Virus record (IMG/VR): IMGVR_UViG_3300027747_002750
Span: 1 to 40,050 of that record
Length of the DNA: 40,050 nucleotides
Direction: 5' to 3' (one strand)
Source of the DNA: a virus
Shown here: piece by piece, positions 3,390 through 33,700 of the stretch
How the letters are laid out: every line of letters begins with the position of its first letter
How positions within the stretch are numbered: position 1 is the stretch's first letter
The notes under the pieces: generated by a model
What the model saw: the letters and a program-made list of their open reading frames with translations, nothing else
What the model was told of the DNA's origin: nothing
The model's database searches: none
Translations under genes and position numbers: made by a program

Positions 3390-3836
3390 ATGAATAATCC
3401 ATCAGGAAATAAATTAAAGAAACTTGTCTTTGGAATGTTTGACCAAATGGTTGAAAGTGCAGACAAGTATGTAACAAAAGAAGGCTCAACTTGGCTGATA
3501 TTCACAGAAGAAAAAAGATGGGTGGTTGAATTTACAAAGGATAAAACCTTATGGTTCAACTATAACCTATTTCAAAGTGAGTTGTATCTAGTCAGTAAGG
3601 ACTGCACTCAAGAAAGAGATTTGATCAAAAACTGGTTTGAATCAAGATTTTTGGGTATTAAACCTGTTGAAGACACCATTCAAAATGGGGTGAAACACAC
3701 CTTGCCTTGGCAATATTGTTCGCATAGGTCAGTTGAAGACACCATTCAAAATGGGGTAAAGGACACCAAAAGCCTTCGTCGCATACATAATCGAAATGTT
3801 GAAGACACCATTCAAAATGGAGAAAAAATTAAATAA
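3390..3836 (+). CDS. Repeat-array protein A
   Basis: Residues 1-92 form a compact domain that includes KRWVVEFTKDKTLWFNYN and ends WFESRFLGIKP. It is about 60% identical to residues 1-90 of the next gene. From residue 93 the frame enters an array in which the 12-residue unit VEDTIQNGVKHT appears three times (the last ends GEKIK), separated by two unrelated 10-residue inserts, LPWQYCSHRS and KSLRRIHNRN. The inserts are rich in Cys, Arg, His and Trp, unlike the Lys/Glu/Asn-rich proteins around them, and use codons such as CGC, CGT and TCG that are rare here. I recall similar domains with repeated VEDTIQNG units in environmental phage sequences but know no function. The C-terminal third may be protein, RNA or both. 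Confidence 0.75.
   Translation: MNNPSGNKLKKLVFGMFDQMVESADKYVTKEGSTWLIFTEEKRWVVEFTKDKTLWFNYNLFQSELYLVSKDCTQERDLIKNWFESRFLGIKPVEDTIQNGVKHTLPWQYCSHRSVEDTIQNGVKDTKSLRRIHNRNVEDTIQNGEKIK
3666..3820 (+). repeat. CRISPR-like mini-array A: 36-bp repeats, 30-bp spacers
   Basis: Repeat 1 (3666-3701) and repeat 2 (3732-3767) are 36 bp each and begin GTTGAAGACACCATTCAAAA. They differ only in the last third (GTGAAACACACC against GTAAAGGACACC). Repeat 3 (3798-3820) keeps the first 23 bp and then degenerates. Spacers 3702-3731 and 3768-3797 are each exactly 30 bp and unrelated to each other. The repeat contains the hairpin CCATT-CAA-AATGG. The 66-bp period equals 22 codons, so the array stays in frame with the host gene. 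There are no cas genes in the window. Confidence 0.85.
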
Positions 3837-3837
3837 A

Positions 3838-4266
3838 ATGAAAAACCCAACAGGAAAAAAATTAGAAAAAATTATCTTTAAATTGTTTGACGATGCGAGT
3901 CAAGGGGTTGATAGATATAATCACAATGGCAGTCTATGGGCTATCTTCACCAATGAGACGAAATGGGTTTTTGAATTTACAAAGGACCAAACTCTATGGT
4001 ATAACTATAGATTCTTCAATAATGAAATGGAACTAATCGGTAAGGACTGCACCGAAGAAAAAGATTTGATTAAGAATTGGTTTGAATCAAGATTTTTGGG
4101 TATTAAACCTGTTGAAGATACCATTCAAAATGGGGTGAAACACACCTTCGGACATAAAATAGATTTTCATGAAACGGTTGAAGATACCATTCAAAATGGG
4201 GTGAAACACACCGGTGGAATGTCCTTCAAACCTTATCAAACAGTTGAAGATACCATTCAAAATTAA
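3838..4266 (+). CDS. Repeat-array protein B, paralogue of A
   Basis: I choose the ATG at 3838, which gives an N-terminus (MKNPTGKKLEK) aligned with that of protein A; upstream in-frame codons overlap array A. The domain at residues 1-90 contains TKWVFEFTKDQTLWYNY and ends WFESRFLGIKP like its neighbour. Three VEDTIQN units follow, with 10-residue inserts FGHKIDFHET and GGMSFKPYQT, and the protein stops within the third unit. The pair arose by tandem duplication. The domain has drifted while the 33 bases just before the repeats are identical in both copies, which suggests recent exchange or constraint on the DNA or RNA at this point. Function unknown. Confidence 0.75.
   Translation: MKNPTGKKLEKIIFKLFDDASQGVDRYNHNGSLWAIFTNETKWVFEFTKDQTLWYNYRFFNNEMELIGKDCTEEKDLIKNWFESRFLGIKPVEDTIQNGVKHTFGHKIDFHETVEDTIQNGVKHTGGMSFKPYQTVEDTIQN
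4111..4263 (+). repeat. CRISPR-like mini-array B: 36-bp repeats, 30-bp spacers
   Basis: Repeats at 4111-4146 and 4177-4212 are identical to each other and begin GTTGAAGATACCATTCAAAA. The third (4243-4263) keeps 21 bp and then runs into the stop codon. Spacers 4147-4176 and 4213-4242 are exactly 30 bp each and share no sequence with each other or with array A. All three copies here carry GAT where all three in array A carry GAC, so each array is homogenised internally. The 33 bases before the first repeat (4078-4110) are identical to 3633-3665. Confidence 0.85.
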
Positions 4267-8930: not shown

Positions 8931-9419
8931 ATGAATAAATTAGACTTAACAGAAAAACTTAAAGAAGAGTTAAAAAGAAGAAATCTTTGGGAACAAGAAG
9001 ATGATGATCAAGATGAAACTCAAGATGATGATGAAACTGATTCATCTAATTCTAACGAAGACTTTTGTGAAATGGTATGTCAGATATTACATTCTCAAAA
9101 ACAAGCACACATATTCCATTTAGGGACAAAGTCATTTGCTGAACATATGGCGTTAAATGGATATTACGATGAGATAGATGAACTTGTGGACGGGCTCATA
9201 GAATCTTTTCAGGGAAAATATGGACTCCTTACAAACTACAAATCTTACAAGGTCCAATCTTACAAAAACAAAAAACAAGTATTAAAATACTTTACAAGTT
9301 TGTTAAATACAATTGAAGAAAAAAGAGATTCGGTTGACGATAGTTACCTTCAAAATCAAATTGATACGATTCAGGAGTTGATCTATTCAACTATGTATAA
9401 GTTGAAGTTTTTAAATTGA
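8931..9419 (+). CDS. DUF5856-like, possibly ferritin-like helical protein
   Basis: 162 residues. A charged N-terminal segment with an Asp/Glu run (about 22-45) precedes a helical bundle. HIFHLGTKSFAEHMALNGYY followed by EIDELVDGLIESFQGKYG has the H...E-H...D..D...E spacing of Dps/ferritin-like metal sites and resembles the phage family I know as DUF5856. A role in binding iron or protecting DNA would follow from that fold, but this is inference. Its last 9 bases overlap the 3' end of the convergent gene on the other strand. Confidence 0.55.
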   Translation: MNKLDLTEKLKEELKRRNLWEQEDDDQDETQDDDETDSSNSNEDFCEMVCQILHSQKQAHIFHLGTKSFAEHMALNGYYDEIDELVDGLIESFQGKYGLLTNYKSYKVQSYKNKKQVLKYFTSLLNTIEEKRDSVDDSYLQNQIDTIQELIYSTMYKLKFLN

Positions 9420-10238
9420 TGCTTTTCCGTAGTATAGAGCGACATAACCGTGATTCAAGTCCAAATTTATTAAATCATATTCATATTCGAGATCTTCGAT
9501 TGTGTATTCACTTTCGAATTGTCTATTTCTAAAATAAGGTTGTTTTAATACTCTACTATTATAAACTATTTGATTAATCAATTCATCTTCATTAAAAATT
9601 AGATCCAAATCGTTTAATGTGTAAATTAAATCTTTAGATTCATCAACCAATTGTTCATCAGTTTCTACTTCACCTGAACCATTACAACTTTCACATTCAA
9701 ATTGACCATCACCACTACAATAATCACAAGATTCAGAACCTTCTCCACCACAAGAAGAACAACTTACATCACCACTACCACCACACTGACTACAATCTTC
9801 TCCATCGATTTCACCATCACCATCACATGAATCACATGTTTCCTTACCAGATCCATCACATTCTCTACATTCTTCATTTCCTGATCCATCACAATATTCA
9901 CACTCTTCTCTTCCATAACCACGACATCTTTCACACTCTTCTATTTTATAACCACCCTGCTCAAACACCTGAAAACGATATCCTTTAAGGTTTTCTAAAA
10001 CATACTTTACTGATTTTGCAGCGTCACCATTTATATGATAAAGATAAATTGAAAAAAACAAGTATAATTCCTCAGAACCATTTAATTTAGAAAGATACAA
10101 ACTCAAAAAATCATCATTGTGGATTTCATTTTTAATGTCACCAATAGTATTAAAAATATCGGGATGGGAAGAATCTTCCAAAGCGTTATGAATTTGTTTT
10201 GTAAATTTTACTAATAGAGGGATTTTCGTGTAGTCCAT
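9411..10238 (-). CDS. Protein with eight DnaJ-type CxxCxGxG motifs
   Basis: I place the start at the ATG at 10238 (MDYTKIPLLVKF), because the upstream extension covers a promoter-like AT-rich stretch. Residues 1-100 are helical. From Cys102 to about residue 195 there are eight CxxCxGxG repeats about 11 residues apart (CERCRGYG through CESCNGSG), twice as many as in DnaJ. They could bind four zinc ions, and a DGEIDGED insertion separates motifs four and five. The C-terminal 75 residues are acidic. DnaJ uses these motifs to grip unfolded proteins, but there is no J domain here. A chaperone or scaffold role is possible. Confidence 0.75.
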   Translation of the reverse strand: MDYTKIPLLVKFTKQIHNALEDSSHPDIFNTIGDIKNEIHNDDFLSLYLSKLNGSEELYLFFSIYLYHINGDAAKSVKYVLENLKGYRFQVFEQGGYKIEECERCRGYGREECEYCDGSGNEECRECDGSGKETCDSCDGDGEIDGEDCSQCGGSGDVSCSSCGGEGSESCDYCSGDGQFECESCNGSGEVETDEQLVDESKDLIYTLNDLDLIFNEDELINQIVYNSRVLKQPYFRNRQFESEYTIEDLEYEYDLINLDLNHGYVALYYGKASI

Positions 10239-10256
10239 TATCAATTTCTTTTTTGA

Positions 10257-10264
10257 AATAAATA
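10257..10264 (-). promoter_or_regulatory. TATTTATT element (minus strand)
   Basis: Reads TATTTATT on the minus strand and ends 18 bases before the ATG at 10238 of the zinc-motif gene. Confidence 0.4.
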
Positions 10265-10307
10265 GTTTATATTTTATAATAGTATAATAATAAAAAATTA
10301 AATAAAC

Positions 10308-10661
10308 ATGGCGCATCCGATACTCCATTCGAAAAGTTCAGCCAAAAAGTTTGGTGGAAAGTGGGAAGATTACATTCATCTTCATAACTGGTTAGATGAG
10401 ACCAAAGGGTGGTATGGGCATTCATTACATAGAATGTGGAGACACCATTCAGAAGGTATATTTGAAATGGAACAAAGATTCGGATCAGAGTTTAAGAATA
10501 GTGACGGGAAAACCGTTTATACAAGATATGTTGGCGAGCAACATGTAAAAGAAGACCTTGATGGGACTATACCATCAGCATCAGATTGGATGAGAATTTT
10601 AATATCAGGTGAAAGACCAACTTGGGTGACAAGAACAAAAAAGTTAGAGTTTGAAGATTAA
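10308..10661 (+). CDS. DUF6915-like protein
   Basis: 117 residues beginning MAHPILHSKSSAKKFGG, then HLHNWLDETKGW, HRMWRHHSEGIFEMEQRFG, YTRYVGEQHVKEDL and a terminal PSASDWMRIL. This order of His-rich motifs matches the small family I know as DUF6915, present in phages and bacteria, for which I know no function. The clustered histidines and acidic residues would suit a metal site. It is divergent from the zinc-motif gene; the 69 bases between them are very AT-rich. Confidence 0.65.
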   Translation: MAHPILHSKSSAKKFGGKWEDYIHLHNWLDETKGWYGHSLHRMWRHHSEGIFEMEQRFGSEFKNSDGKTVYTRYVGEQHVKEDLDGTIPSASDWMRILISGERPTWVTRTKKLEFED

Positions 10662-11416: not shown

Positions 11417-12265
11417 ATGGATAAATTAATTATAGAAGACATAAAAAGAATAAAAAGTTTGATGATCGAATCAGAAGGTAAAAATGAATACAACTTTTGT
11501 GATAGGTTTTCAGGTAACAAACAAAAAAAGTATGTTTGTAGTAAAATTGGTTCACTAAAAGGACTTCTTTCGAGATACAATGGTCTTGATTTAAGAACGG
11601 TTATAGACAAACAAACCTCAGATTTACAAACAGAAATACCCCAAGATTTACAAGAAAAATTTATTGATTGTGCGATTTTTTTAGAATCACTTGGAAAAAT
11701 AACTGAGAAAGAAAAAAATAACTTTATAGAAAAGAAAGTAAAAAATGGCAAGTTGGTTTATTTGAATGGTGAGTGGCAACCCATAAATAAGTTAAATACA
11801 AATTATTTTGATTTGGCAGAAATACTAACTGAACTAATCTATAAAAATAAAAACAACACAACTTTTCAGGCAATCATTAATGACCCTAAAACCACTTTAA
11901 TGAATATGAAGTCAGAAATACATACAATGATTGAAGAATACTTTGATGACCCAAAGATGTTATTTGATTATACCAAAAACATACAAAGAACAACTCAACA
12001 GGGAGAAAGTGCAGAACAAAGGGTTAAAGAACATTTACAAGACAAAGGATTCAAAGTTGAATATGAAGGCGGAAATGGTGATTTAATTGATATGGTGTTT
12101 GGAACGGATTTAATCATGTCTCATCCTGACTTTGGAGTTAAAACAATCCAAGTTAAAGCAAATGAAAAATCTTATGATCAGGACTATGAATATGTTGATT
12201 GGGTTATAATCGCAACACCTTTTACTATTTATGATAATAAGACAAAAAAACCAATTCAGTTATGA
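11417..12265 (+). CDS. Leader-tagged Mrr-like PD-(D/E)xK nuclease candidate
   Basis: 282 residues. The N-terminus MDKLIIEDIKRIKSLMIES is one of the recurrent leaders of this window, with a hydrophobic-x-Glu site before Ser19. A middle region (about 25-190) is helical. The C-terminal 90 residues carry a restriction-endonuclease-like core: GESAEQRV with Glu200, GGNGDLIDMVFG with Asp225, then KTIQVKAN with Gln245-x-Lys247, the Q-x-K form of the motif seen in Mrr and archaeal resolvase relatives. It may cut DNA. If the leader sends it into the head, it could act on host DNA on entry. The fold is inferred from motif spacing. Confidence 0.6.
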   Translation: MDKLIIEDIKRIKSLMIESEGKNEYNFCDRFSGNKQKKYVCSKIGSLKGLLSRYNGLDLRTVIDKQTSDLQTEIPQDLQEKFIDCAIFLESLGKITEKEKNNFIEKKVKNGKLVYLNGEWQPINKLNTNYFDLAEILTELIYKNKNNTTFQAIINDPKTTLMNMKSEIHTMIEEYFDDPKMLFDYTKNIQRTTQQGESAEQRVKEHLQDKGFKVEYEGGNGDLIDMVFGTDLIMSHPDFGVKTIQVKANEKSYDQDYEYVDWVIIATPFTIYDNKTKKPIQL

Positions 12266-30447: not shown

Positions 30448-32235
30448 ATGAATCTACAAGAACAAATATCAAGAATACAAGAAATGATGGGGGTAATCAA
30501 AGAAGAATTACACAATACATCGTCTGAAGACATAAAGACAATTCAATCTGAACTAATAGATATGTTGGGTAATTCCAATACAGATAATGGTGATAGAGTT
30601 GAATTTGTTAATAGAGTATTTGGTTCTGATTCTAGTTTTGACATAATTGTTGACAATTTAGATCAAGAAATTTTAGATAAGATAAATGAGTTCATGGATG
30701 AGAAAGGTTGGTTTCCTGCCAATATTGGGTTTTCAGGTATGAAAGGACGTATATATTCACAAAATTTTAAAGATTATTTAGGTGAGGACGATGTTCAAAT
30801 TACTTACGAGGCACATTCGCCTGATGAGATCAAAATTACTCAAACCAAAGCTTATCATGTAACACCTGACATTTTTTTTAATAAAATAAATCAAGAAGGT
30901 CTTATACCTAAATCTGAAAGTAAATTATCTAACCATCCTGATAGGGTTTATTTATATCGAAATCAAGACAAACACAAAGATATAGTTTGGACATTATGGA
31001 ATTCTTTAAGTAAAGAAAGACAAGAGCAGATAAAAAATTACTATGTGTTAGAAATCGATTTGACACAAATACCAAATTATAATTTTTTCAAAGATCCTCA
31101 AGCAATGGCAGACTATGGTGCTATCTATACTGATAAACCGATTCCAAAATCTGCGATCAGGGTTATTGATAAGATAGATACTAAGGGTATTGAAACTGTT
31201 GATAAAGATGAGATGTCAAAAGAAGAAGAAAAAATCGCTAGTAATGAATTAAAACAAAGAGAGAAAGAAAGAATAGACCGTGAAAAAGAACAAGAAAAGT
31301 CTGATTCAGAATATGCCGAATATAGTAAAAAAGTTAATGATCTTCCTGACAATTTAAAAAACATAGATATAGATGATTTATTAAGTTTGGAAGAACAAAT
31401 AAAAAAAGTAATAAAAAAAGTAATTAATGAAAGTGACCCAAAGGTCGGAACTGGTAAAAAACCAAAGGGTTCTGAAAGAAGATTATATACAGATGAAAAT
31501 CCAAGTGATACGGTGTCCGTTAAGTTTAAAACAAAACAAGATGTTATTGATACTCTAAACAAAGATAGTTTTAAATCCAAATCACACGCCAGACAATCAC
31601 AAATTATTAATCTTATACATCAGAGATTAAGAGTGGCGTTAGAAAGAGCAAAAGACCCTGAAGTAAAGAAAAGATTAAGAACCGCATTTGAATACATTGA
31701 GTCTAAAAAAGAAGCATCCAAGAGAAAGACTCAAGAAATGAAAGAAGAAGAACTAACAGAAAAGTGTTGGAAAGGATATACTCAAAAAGGTATGAAGACA
31801 ATGTTTGGTAAGAGATACCCCAATTGTGTTAAAAAAAAAAGTAAAACATTAAAAGAATCCAAAACTTCAAAAGAAGATTATTCTGATATAGAAACTGTGA
31901 TAAATAAAATTATACCAAAGAGTTTTTCTTGGTTTAAAGAAATAGAAATAGATAATATTAGTTATTCTGAATTTTCCAACACATTAACAATTTACGGAGA
32001 ATTAAAAGTAGATGAAGAGTGGGGAGCAAAACAATGGAGAGAATATTATGAATATAAACCTTTCCCTTCAAATAGTGGATGGGAAGAAGAAGATCCTGTT
32101 AGACTAGGTGATATCGTAGGAAAAGGAGAACTTGATGATCTAAACGACCAAATGGAAGTTATAGTATCATCAGTGGGTAATTACTCAATTATAGATACTA
32201 TAAGATTAGGACAATTAAAGTTATATTTTGTATGA
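30448..32235 (+). CDS. Leader-tagged ADP-ribosyltransferase-like polyprotein candidate (595 aa)
   Basis: Start at 30448, set by the TATTTATT element; leader MNLQEQISRIQEMMGVIKEE (site after Glu19). About residues 130-255 read KAYHVTPDIFFNKINQEGLI, then DRVYLYRNQD, YVLEIDLTQIPN and AIYTDKPIPKSAIRVID, an ADP-ribosyltransferase-like order (H-x-T near the start, GL-x-P, then I-P-x-x-A-I). A charged linker ends VINE-S (Glu328). Next comes a basic region with RRLYTDENPSDTVSVKFKTK and CWKGYTQKGMKTMFGKRYPN, ending LKE-S (Glu470), then a C-terminal alpha/beta module. T4 Alt is a known packaged ADP-ribosyltransferase, so the parallel is attractive but unproven. It overlaps the next gene by ATGA. Confidence 0.65.
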   Translation: MNLQEQISRIQEMMGVIKEELHNTSSEDIKTIQSELIDMLGNSNTDNGDRVEFVNRVFGSDSSFDIIVDNLDQEILDKINEFMDEKGWFPANIGFSGMKGRIYSQNFKDYLGEDDVQITYEAHSPDEIKITQTKAYHVTPDIFFNKINQEGLIPKSESKLSNHPDRVYLYRNQDKHKDIVWTLWNSLSKERQEQIKNYYVLEIDLTQIPNYNFFKDPQAMADYGAIYTDKPIPKSAIRVIDKIDTKGIETVDKDEMSKEEEKIASNELKQREKERIDREKEQEKSDSEYAEYSKKVNDLPDNLKNIDIDDLLSLEEQIKKVIKKVINESDPKVGTGKKPKGSERRLYTDENPSDTVSVKFKTKQDVIDTLNKDSFKSKSHARQSQIINLIHQRLRVALERAKDPEVKKRLRTAFEYIESKKEASKRKTQEMKEEELTEKCWKGYTQKGMKTMFGKRYPNCVKKKSKTLKESKTSKEDYSDIETVINKIIPKSFSWFKEIEIDNISYSEFSNTLTIYGELKVDEEWGAKQWREYYEYKPFPSNSGWEEEDPVRLGDIVGKGELDDLNDQMEVIVSSVGNYSIIDTIRLGQLKLYFV

Positions 32236-33569: not shown

Positions 33570-33667
33570 TACCCGATAGGGTACAAAATAATACCTTTAG
33601 TAAACAATCATACCCGATAGGGTACAAAATAATACCTTTAGTAAACAATCATACCCAATAGGGTACA
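33570..33667. repeat. 41-bp direct repeats with dyad TACCC-GATA-GGGTA
   Basis: Copies begin at 33570, 33611 and 33652; the first two are identical over 41 bp (TACCCGATAGGGTACAAAAT and onward) and the third covers the first 16 bases with one change (CAATA for CGATA). Each core is an inverted repeat TACCC/GGGTA. The layout resembles replication or partition iterons. Confidence 0.8.
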
Positions 33668-33700
33668 ATTCCCCCATTCATTACAAGACCCCATTTATAA

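Follow-up and report, generated by a model that had tools for sequence, protein, structure and literature searches.

The CRISPR arrays of Flavobacterium types II-C and VI-B combine 36-bp repeats with spacers that are mostly 30 bp long, and the F. columnare repeat has its GTTGT end away from the leader (PMC8092290). Arrays of this general kind are also carried by viruses. The repeats of viral mini-CRISPR arrays and RNA anti-CRISPRs copy those of the host, and the spacers of mini-arrays target related viruses (PMC11656645). The short arrays of Thermus Lalka phages have 29-bp repeats and spacers of 32-33 bp, lie adjacent to a tnpB-like gene and are not described as coding (PMC11437467).

The window analysed here, by which we mean the whole 40,050-nt stretch of viral DNA, contains two tandem genes (3390-3836 and 3838-4266), each with three terminal repeats at 66-nt spacing and inserts of exactly 30 nt. 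Sequence and repeat calls confirm what the preliminary description had reported, namely paired tandem genes ending in 36-bp repeats with four 30-bp spacers and a degenerate last repeat. The core repeat occurs in six copies in the 40-kb record and in none in a backwards control. All four inserts are 30 nt long and mutually unrelated, as had also been claimed. The genes themselves are paralogues (82% over the 206-nt pair). Every repeat of array 1 contains GAC where those of array 2 contain GAT, so the repeats are closer within an array than between arrays. The second gene most likely starts at 3838, one base past the stop of the first, rather than at 3796. The features are as follows.

3390..3836, + strand: array gene 1, 148 aa, N-terminal domain and three units (ORF call; family members)
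3390..3665, + strand: N-terminal domain of gene 1, ~92 residues, no named relative (alignment; Pfam, PHROGs, PDB; AlphaFold)
3666..3701, + strand: repeat 1 of array 1, VEDTIQNGVKHT (sequence and repeat calls)
3702..3731, + strand: insert 1 of array 1, 30 nt, LPWQYCSHRS (viral contigs with a match: L025 and L069 only)
3732..3767, + strand: repeat 2 of array 1, VEDTIQNGVKDT (sequence and repeat calls)
3768..3797, + strand: insert 2 of array 1, 30 nt, KSLRRIHNRN (viral contigs with a match: L025 and L069 only)
3798..3833, + strand: repeat 3 of array 1, worn at its 3' end, VEDTIQNGEKIK, followed by the stop (sequence and repeat calls)
3838..4266, + strand: array gene 2, paralogue of gene 1 (ORF call; 82% over 206 nt)
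3838..4110, + strand: N-terminal domain of gene 2 (ORF call; repeat calls; alignment)
4111..4146, + strand: repeat 1 of array 2 (sequence and repeat calls)
4147..4176, + strand: insert 1 of array 2, 30 nt, FGHKIDFHET (viral contigs with a match: L025 and L069 only)
4177..4212, + strand: repeat 2 of array 2 (sequence and repeat calls)
4213..4242, + strand: insert 2 of array 2, 30 nt, GGMSFKPYQT (viral contigs with a match: L025 and L069 only)
4243..4263, + strand: repeat 3 of array 2, truncated to 21 nt by the stop, VEDTIQN (sequence and repeat calls)

Related arrays terminate likewise, in VEDTIQNGEKIK or VENTIQNGEKIK. Elsewhere in the window there is a 41-nt tandem repeat (2.4 copies at 98%, 33570-33668) outside the listed ORFs, and a protein on the minus strand (9411-10328) with a CxxC-GxG run that is DnaJ zinc finger-like, with no obvious J domain. 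In addition, many otherwise unrelated window proteins open with a short helix-like tag that has an acidic end (MKNLIRxILKEE and variants, MNLQEQI..., ITEDQY...); they start near 11417, 20766, 21708, 24839, 25273, 25593, 26030 and 26674, and further along near 32232, 33006, 38892, 39253 and 39573. It may serve proteins packaged in the virion as a signal for capsid targeting or for the prohead protease.

About 150 IMG/VR contigs of large viruses of Bacteroidota carry standalone genes of the family to which the array genes belong; in this family a conserved N-terminal domain of ~90 residues is followed by 2-28 units of VEDTIQNGVKHT plus 10 variable residues. The exact 23-nt core is present in at least 119 viral contig stretches, so the feature is not unique to the phage in the window, and an alignment search found relatives of the N-terminal domain encoded in 163 viral contig stretches, 80 of which were retained. 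Contigs with family members reach 281-309 kb. All inspected members that extend well beyond the domain have arrays, of up to 28 units, and the few members that lack one run into a contig end or have an early stop. No conserved partner gene was found; the neighbours are mosaic and differ from phage to phage, and the array gene therefore stands alone. Comparison of the gene pair with named phages returned chance fragments only, and no description of such a family was found in the open-access literature. For the N-terminal domain, comparison with Pfam, PHROGs and the PDB gave nothing significant. AlphaFold predicts it as a helix, four strands and two helices (pLDDT ~90), and a fold search gave no PDB match below E 0.001. 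The same kind of search in BFVD led to uncharacterised proteins of uncultured Caudovirales; three of these predicted structures (A0A6J5L9N2, A0A6J5L6U7 and A0A6J5L9L5) have 19-26% identity to the domain and are probably distant family members.

The array is clearly translated and selected as a protein. All 329 distinct segments flanked by well-kept repeats keep the phase and lack in-frame stops. Exactly 30 nt is the length of 297 of the 329, and these have no in-frame stops against ~151 of 297 expected from shuffling, while stops are present in 107 and 172 of the 297 in the remaining two forward frames. Spacings within arrays are multiples of three, 66 being dominant and 63, 69, 72, 60 and 57 also present; core copies share the reading frame of their own array gene, and the few counts outside it arise where tandem genes overlap. 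As repeats age, their glycine codon has undergone 179 synonymous and 4 other changes and their valine codon 146 and 38, numbers that overstate the constraint because the motif used to find units favours G and V. Spacings that are multiples of three, the lack of stops in 329 segments and the mostly synonymous change in the G/V core support the earlier proposal of a repeat protein with hypervariable inserts; the test that the preliminary description had set for a repeat protein comes out in favour of one.

The 12-residue repeat VEDTIQNGVKHT is likely to form a beta-hairpin with an NG turn. MORN-type repeats have a hairpin-like unit of ~22 residues with an NG turn and resemble the array unit; a 24-unit member of the family gave no Pfam match to the MORN profile at E 1. 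The model of a six-unit tail consists of stacked beta hairpins (pLDDT 81), and the tail of the window protein is disordered in the AlphaFold prediction. AlphaFold2 is known to favour stacked beta models for tandem repeats. We keep the beta-hairpin tail model, for which no match to solved structures was found below E 0.001, as a hint and no more. The protein's structure might itself require the exact 22-residue period.

In a set of 379 distinct 30-nt inserts, nearest-neighbour distances are mostly either up to ~8 nt, as in shared cassettes, or 11-17 nt, as for unrelated sequence; in the absence of a continuum of distances, inserts do not drift into one another. The comparison of closely related phages firmly indicates that whole 66-nt units are gained and lost. 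L094 and L095 have arrays with 4 and 6 unshared units between flanks of 99.9% and 99.7% identity, and the differences between L008 and L010 (99%) include a clean one-unit insertion. The window inserts recur in L025 (99.9% identical) and, in contrast to L094 and L095, are unchanged in L069 (97.4% identical), so turnover is uneven. Variable length and conservation between related phages had been named in the preliminary description as signs of a plain repeat protein. The outcome is mixed: the length proved to be nearly fixed, and phages of 97% identity have the same inserts in the present case, but elsewhere inserts turn over at 99.7% identity.

The arrays are also clearly polar, with the young end adjoining the N-terminal domain. 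The share of unique inserts is 45% beside this domain and 12% at the far end (Spearman p ~1e-12); intact repeats concentrate near the domain, and the far end has worn repeats and cassettes common to many phages, such as EDGDWLDGDER. The mean difference between repeats is 6.4 nt for neighbouring copies and 8.0 nt for those at least six units apart, a family-wide trend that is weaker than the GAC/GAT distinction in the window, and adjacent inserts differ at 21.5 of 30 positions, which is the level of unrelated sequence. Most insert families (239 of 338) are restricted to one array, and the incidence data suggest at least ~900 cassette families. The same cassettes reappear in differing orders among phages. 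One long cassette, TPSGYLGSIEMKGKIVHQIESPKQNNE, with its variants, occupies mid-array positions in L033, L035, L087, L094, L095, L104 and others, whose arrays are otherwise different; its recurrence suggests strong retention of particular peptides.

Young inserts have 38-39% GC, whereas the phages themselves have 29-32%, and they display little codon-position structure, with near-maximal entropy at each position. Searches at the blastn level found no source for the inserts among phages and plasmids in the searched collections, and matches to the family's own phage contigs were little above controls after the repeat motif and neighbouring units were excluded. The comparison of the four window spacers with phage and plasmid sequences that had been suggested earlier gave no target; viral matches to these were limited to L025 and L069. 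Bacterial genomes did provide matches. A set of 70 inserts matched 12 of 395 Bacteroidota genomes (best E 2.9e-5) against 3 of 395 for reversed inserts (best 0.003), and a second set matched 41 of 395 against 1 of 186 for reversed inserts, a genome-level signal that depends on few inserts, rpoB foremost, counted repeatedly across several genomes. One insert, AGATATGCCGTTCCTAGAAGATGGAACGCC, accounts for most of the 41 genomes and matches ~37 genomes at 90-93% over its full length. It translates in frame +1 to DMPFLEDGTP, which we take to be a conserved motif of the RNA polymerase beta subunit (rpoB). Another insert (PDTIFGVSF, frame +2) matches leuS at 27 of 30 nt and 9 of 9 residues, its three mismatches being synonymous in leuS; in the matching genome (2.8 Mb), reversed inserts never rose above 23 of 30. 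The rpoB and leuS inserts are in the sense orientation, and those assigned to dnaK (SDEEIKRMKA), gatA (QRLIDQDAIV) and pyk (AEVNDVANA) are antisense.

These gene names are based on the open frames at the matches and on known motifs. Sources were assigned for ~10 of ~340 insert families, some weakly, with none of the four window inserts among them, and a protein-level test against one Bacteroidota genome gave an excess confined to the very top. The assignment of one insert to cysS is weak, as the insert terminates in DDDLP where the enzyme reads DDDFNTP; crtI, accA, clpX, mutL, a TonB-receptor-like sequence (NVSVSGTTI) and a PKD-like sequence (AGTYNVTLTD) are plausible but tentative assignments. 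The best-assigned bacterial inserts are mostly in the front half of their arrays (L107 unit 5, L058 unit 7, L045 unit 1, L007 unit 1, L094 unit 6). It is well supported that some inserts are bacterial chromosomal DNA from Bacteroidota housekeeping genes, with controlled matches for a handful of them; young inserts in general may derive from bacterial chromosomal genes. The occurrence of both strands and several frames makes the source look like DNA taken regardless of reading frame. Peptide mimicry does not account for the choice of inserts, nor does antisense RNA targeting. A strand bias towards antisense RNA had been considered because the first matches were mostly antisense, but it was dropped given the sense orientation of rpoB and leuS. 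No PAM motif was seen around the sources, which are few and come from relatives only.

In their construction the arrays follow CRISPR arrays closely, with constant 36-nt direct repeats, unrelated spacers of near-constant 30-nt length and polarity with worn repeats at one end, but here, unlike in F. columnare, units are youngest towards the GTTG side. The spacers of CRISPR arrays match phages or mobile elements, and none of the inserts does so at the blastn level; CRISPR arrays give non-coding transcripts that are processed to crRNA, and all inserts here are under coding constraint. The match to host CRISPR repeats that had been raised as a possibility was not found at the exact level in ~85,000 species genomes. 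This search used the exact 21-nt core, covering exact matches and not diverged repeats, and it returned no host CRISPR array and four isolated single matches. No cas1 was found in 12 related phage records (positive controls were detected), and the repeat matches no Rfam CRISPR family. The hairpin noted earlier (CCATT-CAA-AATGG) is present, but its stability does not exceed that of shuffled sequences (z -0.13 to -0.42). With no cas1, exact host repeat, Rfam family, stable hairpin, phage or plasmid targets or strand bias among the identified inserts found, the suggestion of a guide array, in the sense of a working CRISPR, is unsupported. For the lack of a host repeat, cas1, Rfam family and hairpin stability, and because of coding selection and a young end on the opposite side, we do not file the locus as a CRISPR array even though it is built like one. 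The resemblance is nevertheless no accident of geometry, in view of the whole-unit turnover, the polarity and the bacterial inserts. Neither a plain repeat protein alone nor a guide array alone covers the observations.

We propose a translated cassette array fed by the capture of host DNA, a reading that as a whole we consider about evenly balanced between right and wrong. The phage protein would comprise the conserved N-terminal domain and a C-terminal tail of 22-residue units (12 fixed and 10 variable), and the array would be renewed at the DNA level by gain and loss of whole 66-nt units. Each new unit would consist of a copied nearby 36-nt repeat and 30 nt of bacterial chromosomal DNA, presumably that of the host, captured from either strand and in any frame and retained only where it has no in-frame stop. 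Useful cassettes would age in place towards the 3' end and spread between phages by recombination, followed by amino-acid selection. Most inserts would then be host-derived, and the 30-nt ruler and the copying of the repeat may reflect an integrase like that of CRISPR adaptation. To name the capture enzyme is to guess; it is perhaps a host Cas1-Cas2 acting in trans, because no Cas1 was found in these phages. The product might serve as a hypervariable peptide display, decoy or inhibitor directed at proteins of the host or of rival phages. In its most specific form, which we regard as possible and put forward tentatively, an adaptation integrase, probably host Cas1-Cas2 acting on a coding mimic of its repeat, would write 30-bp host scraps into the phage ORF during infection, and the translated scraps would form a constantly refreshed peptide library against host or competitors.

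Exchange of units between phages could explain most of the turnover, and host capture would be rare or incidental if the arrays encode a hypervariable repeat protein whose old phage cassettes recombine at the 36-nt repeats. The shared cassettes in different orders point this way, as do the many insert families present in at least two arrays and the small number of inserts with an assigned bacterial source, but 239 of 338 families are confined to a single array, the GC content of the inserts is unlike that of the phages, and real inserts match Bacteroidota genes far more than reversed ones; on balance we find this account rather unlikely. An improbable variant on the protein side takes the 22-residue period as a demand of folding, so that illegitimate insertions of any length occur, only those of 30 nt survive and no ruler integrase is involved. 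It would accommodate the 27- and 33-nt inserts and the longer cassettes, which are commoner in worn units, and it agrees with the stacked hairpins of the six-unit model (pLDDT 81). However, the inserts that would be required to fold are near-random sequence, the window tail is predicted to be disordered, stacked beta models are a known AlphaFold2 weakness and no solved structure matches below E 0.001.

Slightly less probable again is a guide-RNA array within a coding transcript, whose repeats would be processed by host type II-C or VI-B Cas proteins and whose 30-nt guides would act against host genes, in a takeover, or tie up Cas9 or Cas13b as decoys, the frame being kept so that translation protects the RNA. 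The 36/30 geometry equals that of the II-C and VI-B arrays of Flavobacterium, phage and host contribute VI-B spacers in about equal parts (PMC8092290), and polarity and whole-unit turnover are in keeping with the idea. Set against these are the amino-acid selection on the repeat and the lack of stops, a repeat that at the exact level forms no array in 85,000 species genomes, the missing Rfam CRISPR family, a hairpin at the shuffled level, identified inserts in both orientations, and a young end at the GTTG side, opposite to that of F. columnare. A diversity-generating retroelement, or another form of targeted mutation of the inserts, would account for hypervariable fixed-frame cassettes in phage genes, but we regard it as scarcely credible: no RVT_1 was found in 12 phage records, which include six of 230-309 kb, and the inserts lie at random distance from one another, not as variants of a template.

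Should the translated cassette array fed by host DNA be correct, a victim's random DNA would be continually recorded in a viral genome and translated. This would amount to a new route to protein diversity and possibly to a new use or imitation of CRISPR adaptation, and each array would be a readable record of the last host infected by its phage lineage. The safe part is a widespread unnamed phage family in which turnover of whole cassettes outpaces point mutation in the flanks, and this points to a strong, unexplained arms race in Bacteroidota phages.

Among known systems, the phage arrays are like the II-C and VI-B arrays of Bacteroidota (PMC8092290) in their 36-nt repeats starting with GTTG, mostly 30-nt spacers, gain of whole units, polarity and host chromosomal spacers. 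They are unlike them in being an ORF under amino-acid selection with no cas genes nearby, in having a repeat with no known match in host arrays and in having the young end on the opposite side. Viral mini-CRISPR arrays and RNA anti-CRISPRs (PMC11656645) are likewise phage-borne CRISPR-like repeats that come without cas genes; the repeats described here, in contrast, are not known host repeats at the exact level, and no virus target was found for the inserts. The Thermus Lalka arrays (PMC11437467) share with them a phage-borne location and a repeat that matches no known host repeat. Diversity-generating retroelements also produce hypervariable segments in phage proteins, but here no reverse transcriptase was found and the inserts have no template-like relation. 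Finally, unlike MORN-type proteins, the phage proteins devote nearly half of each array unit to unconstrained sequence.
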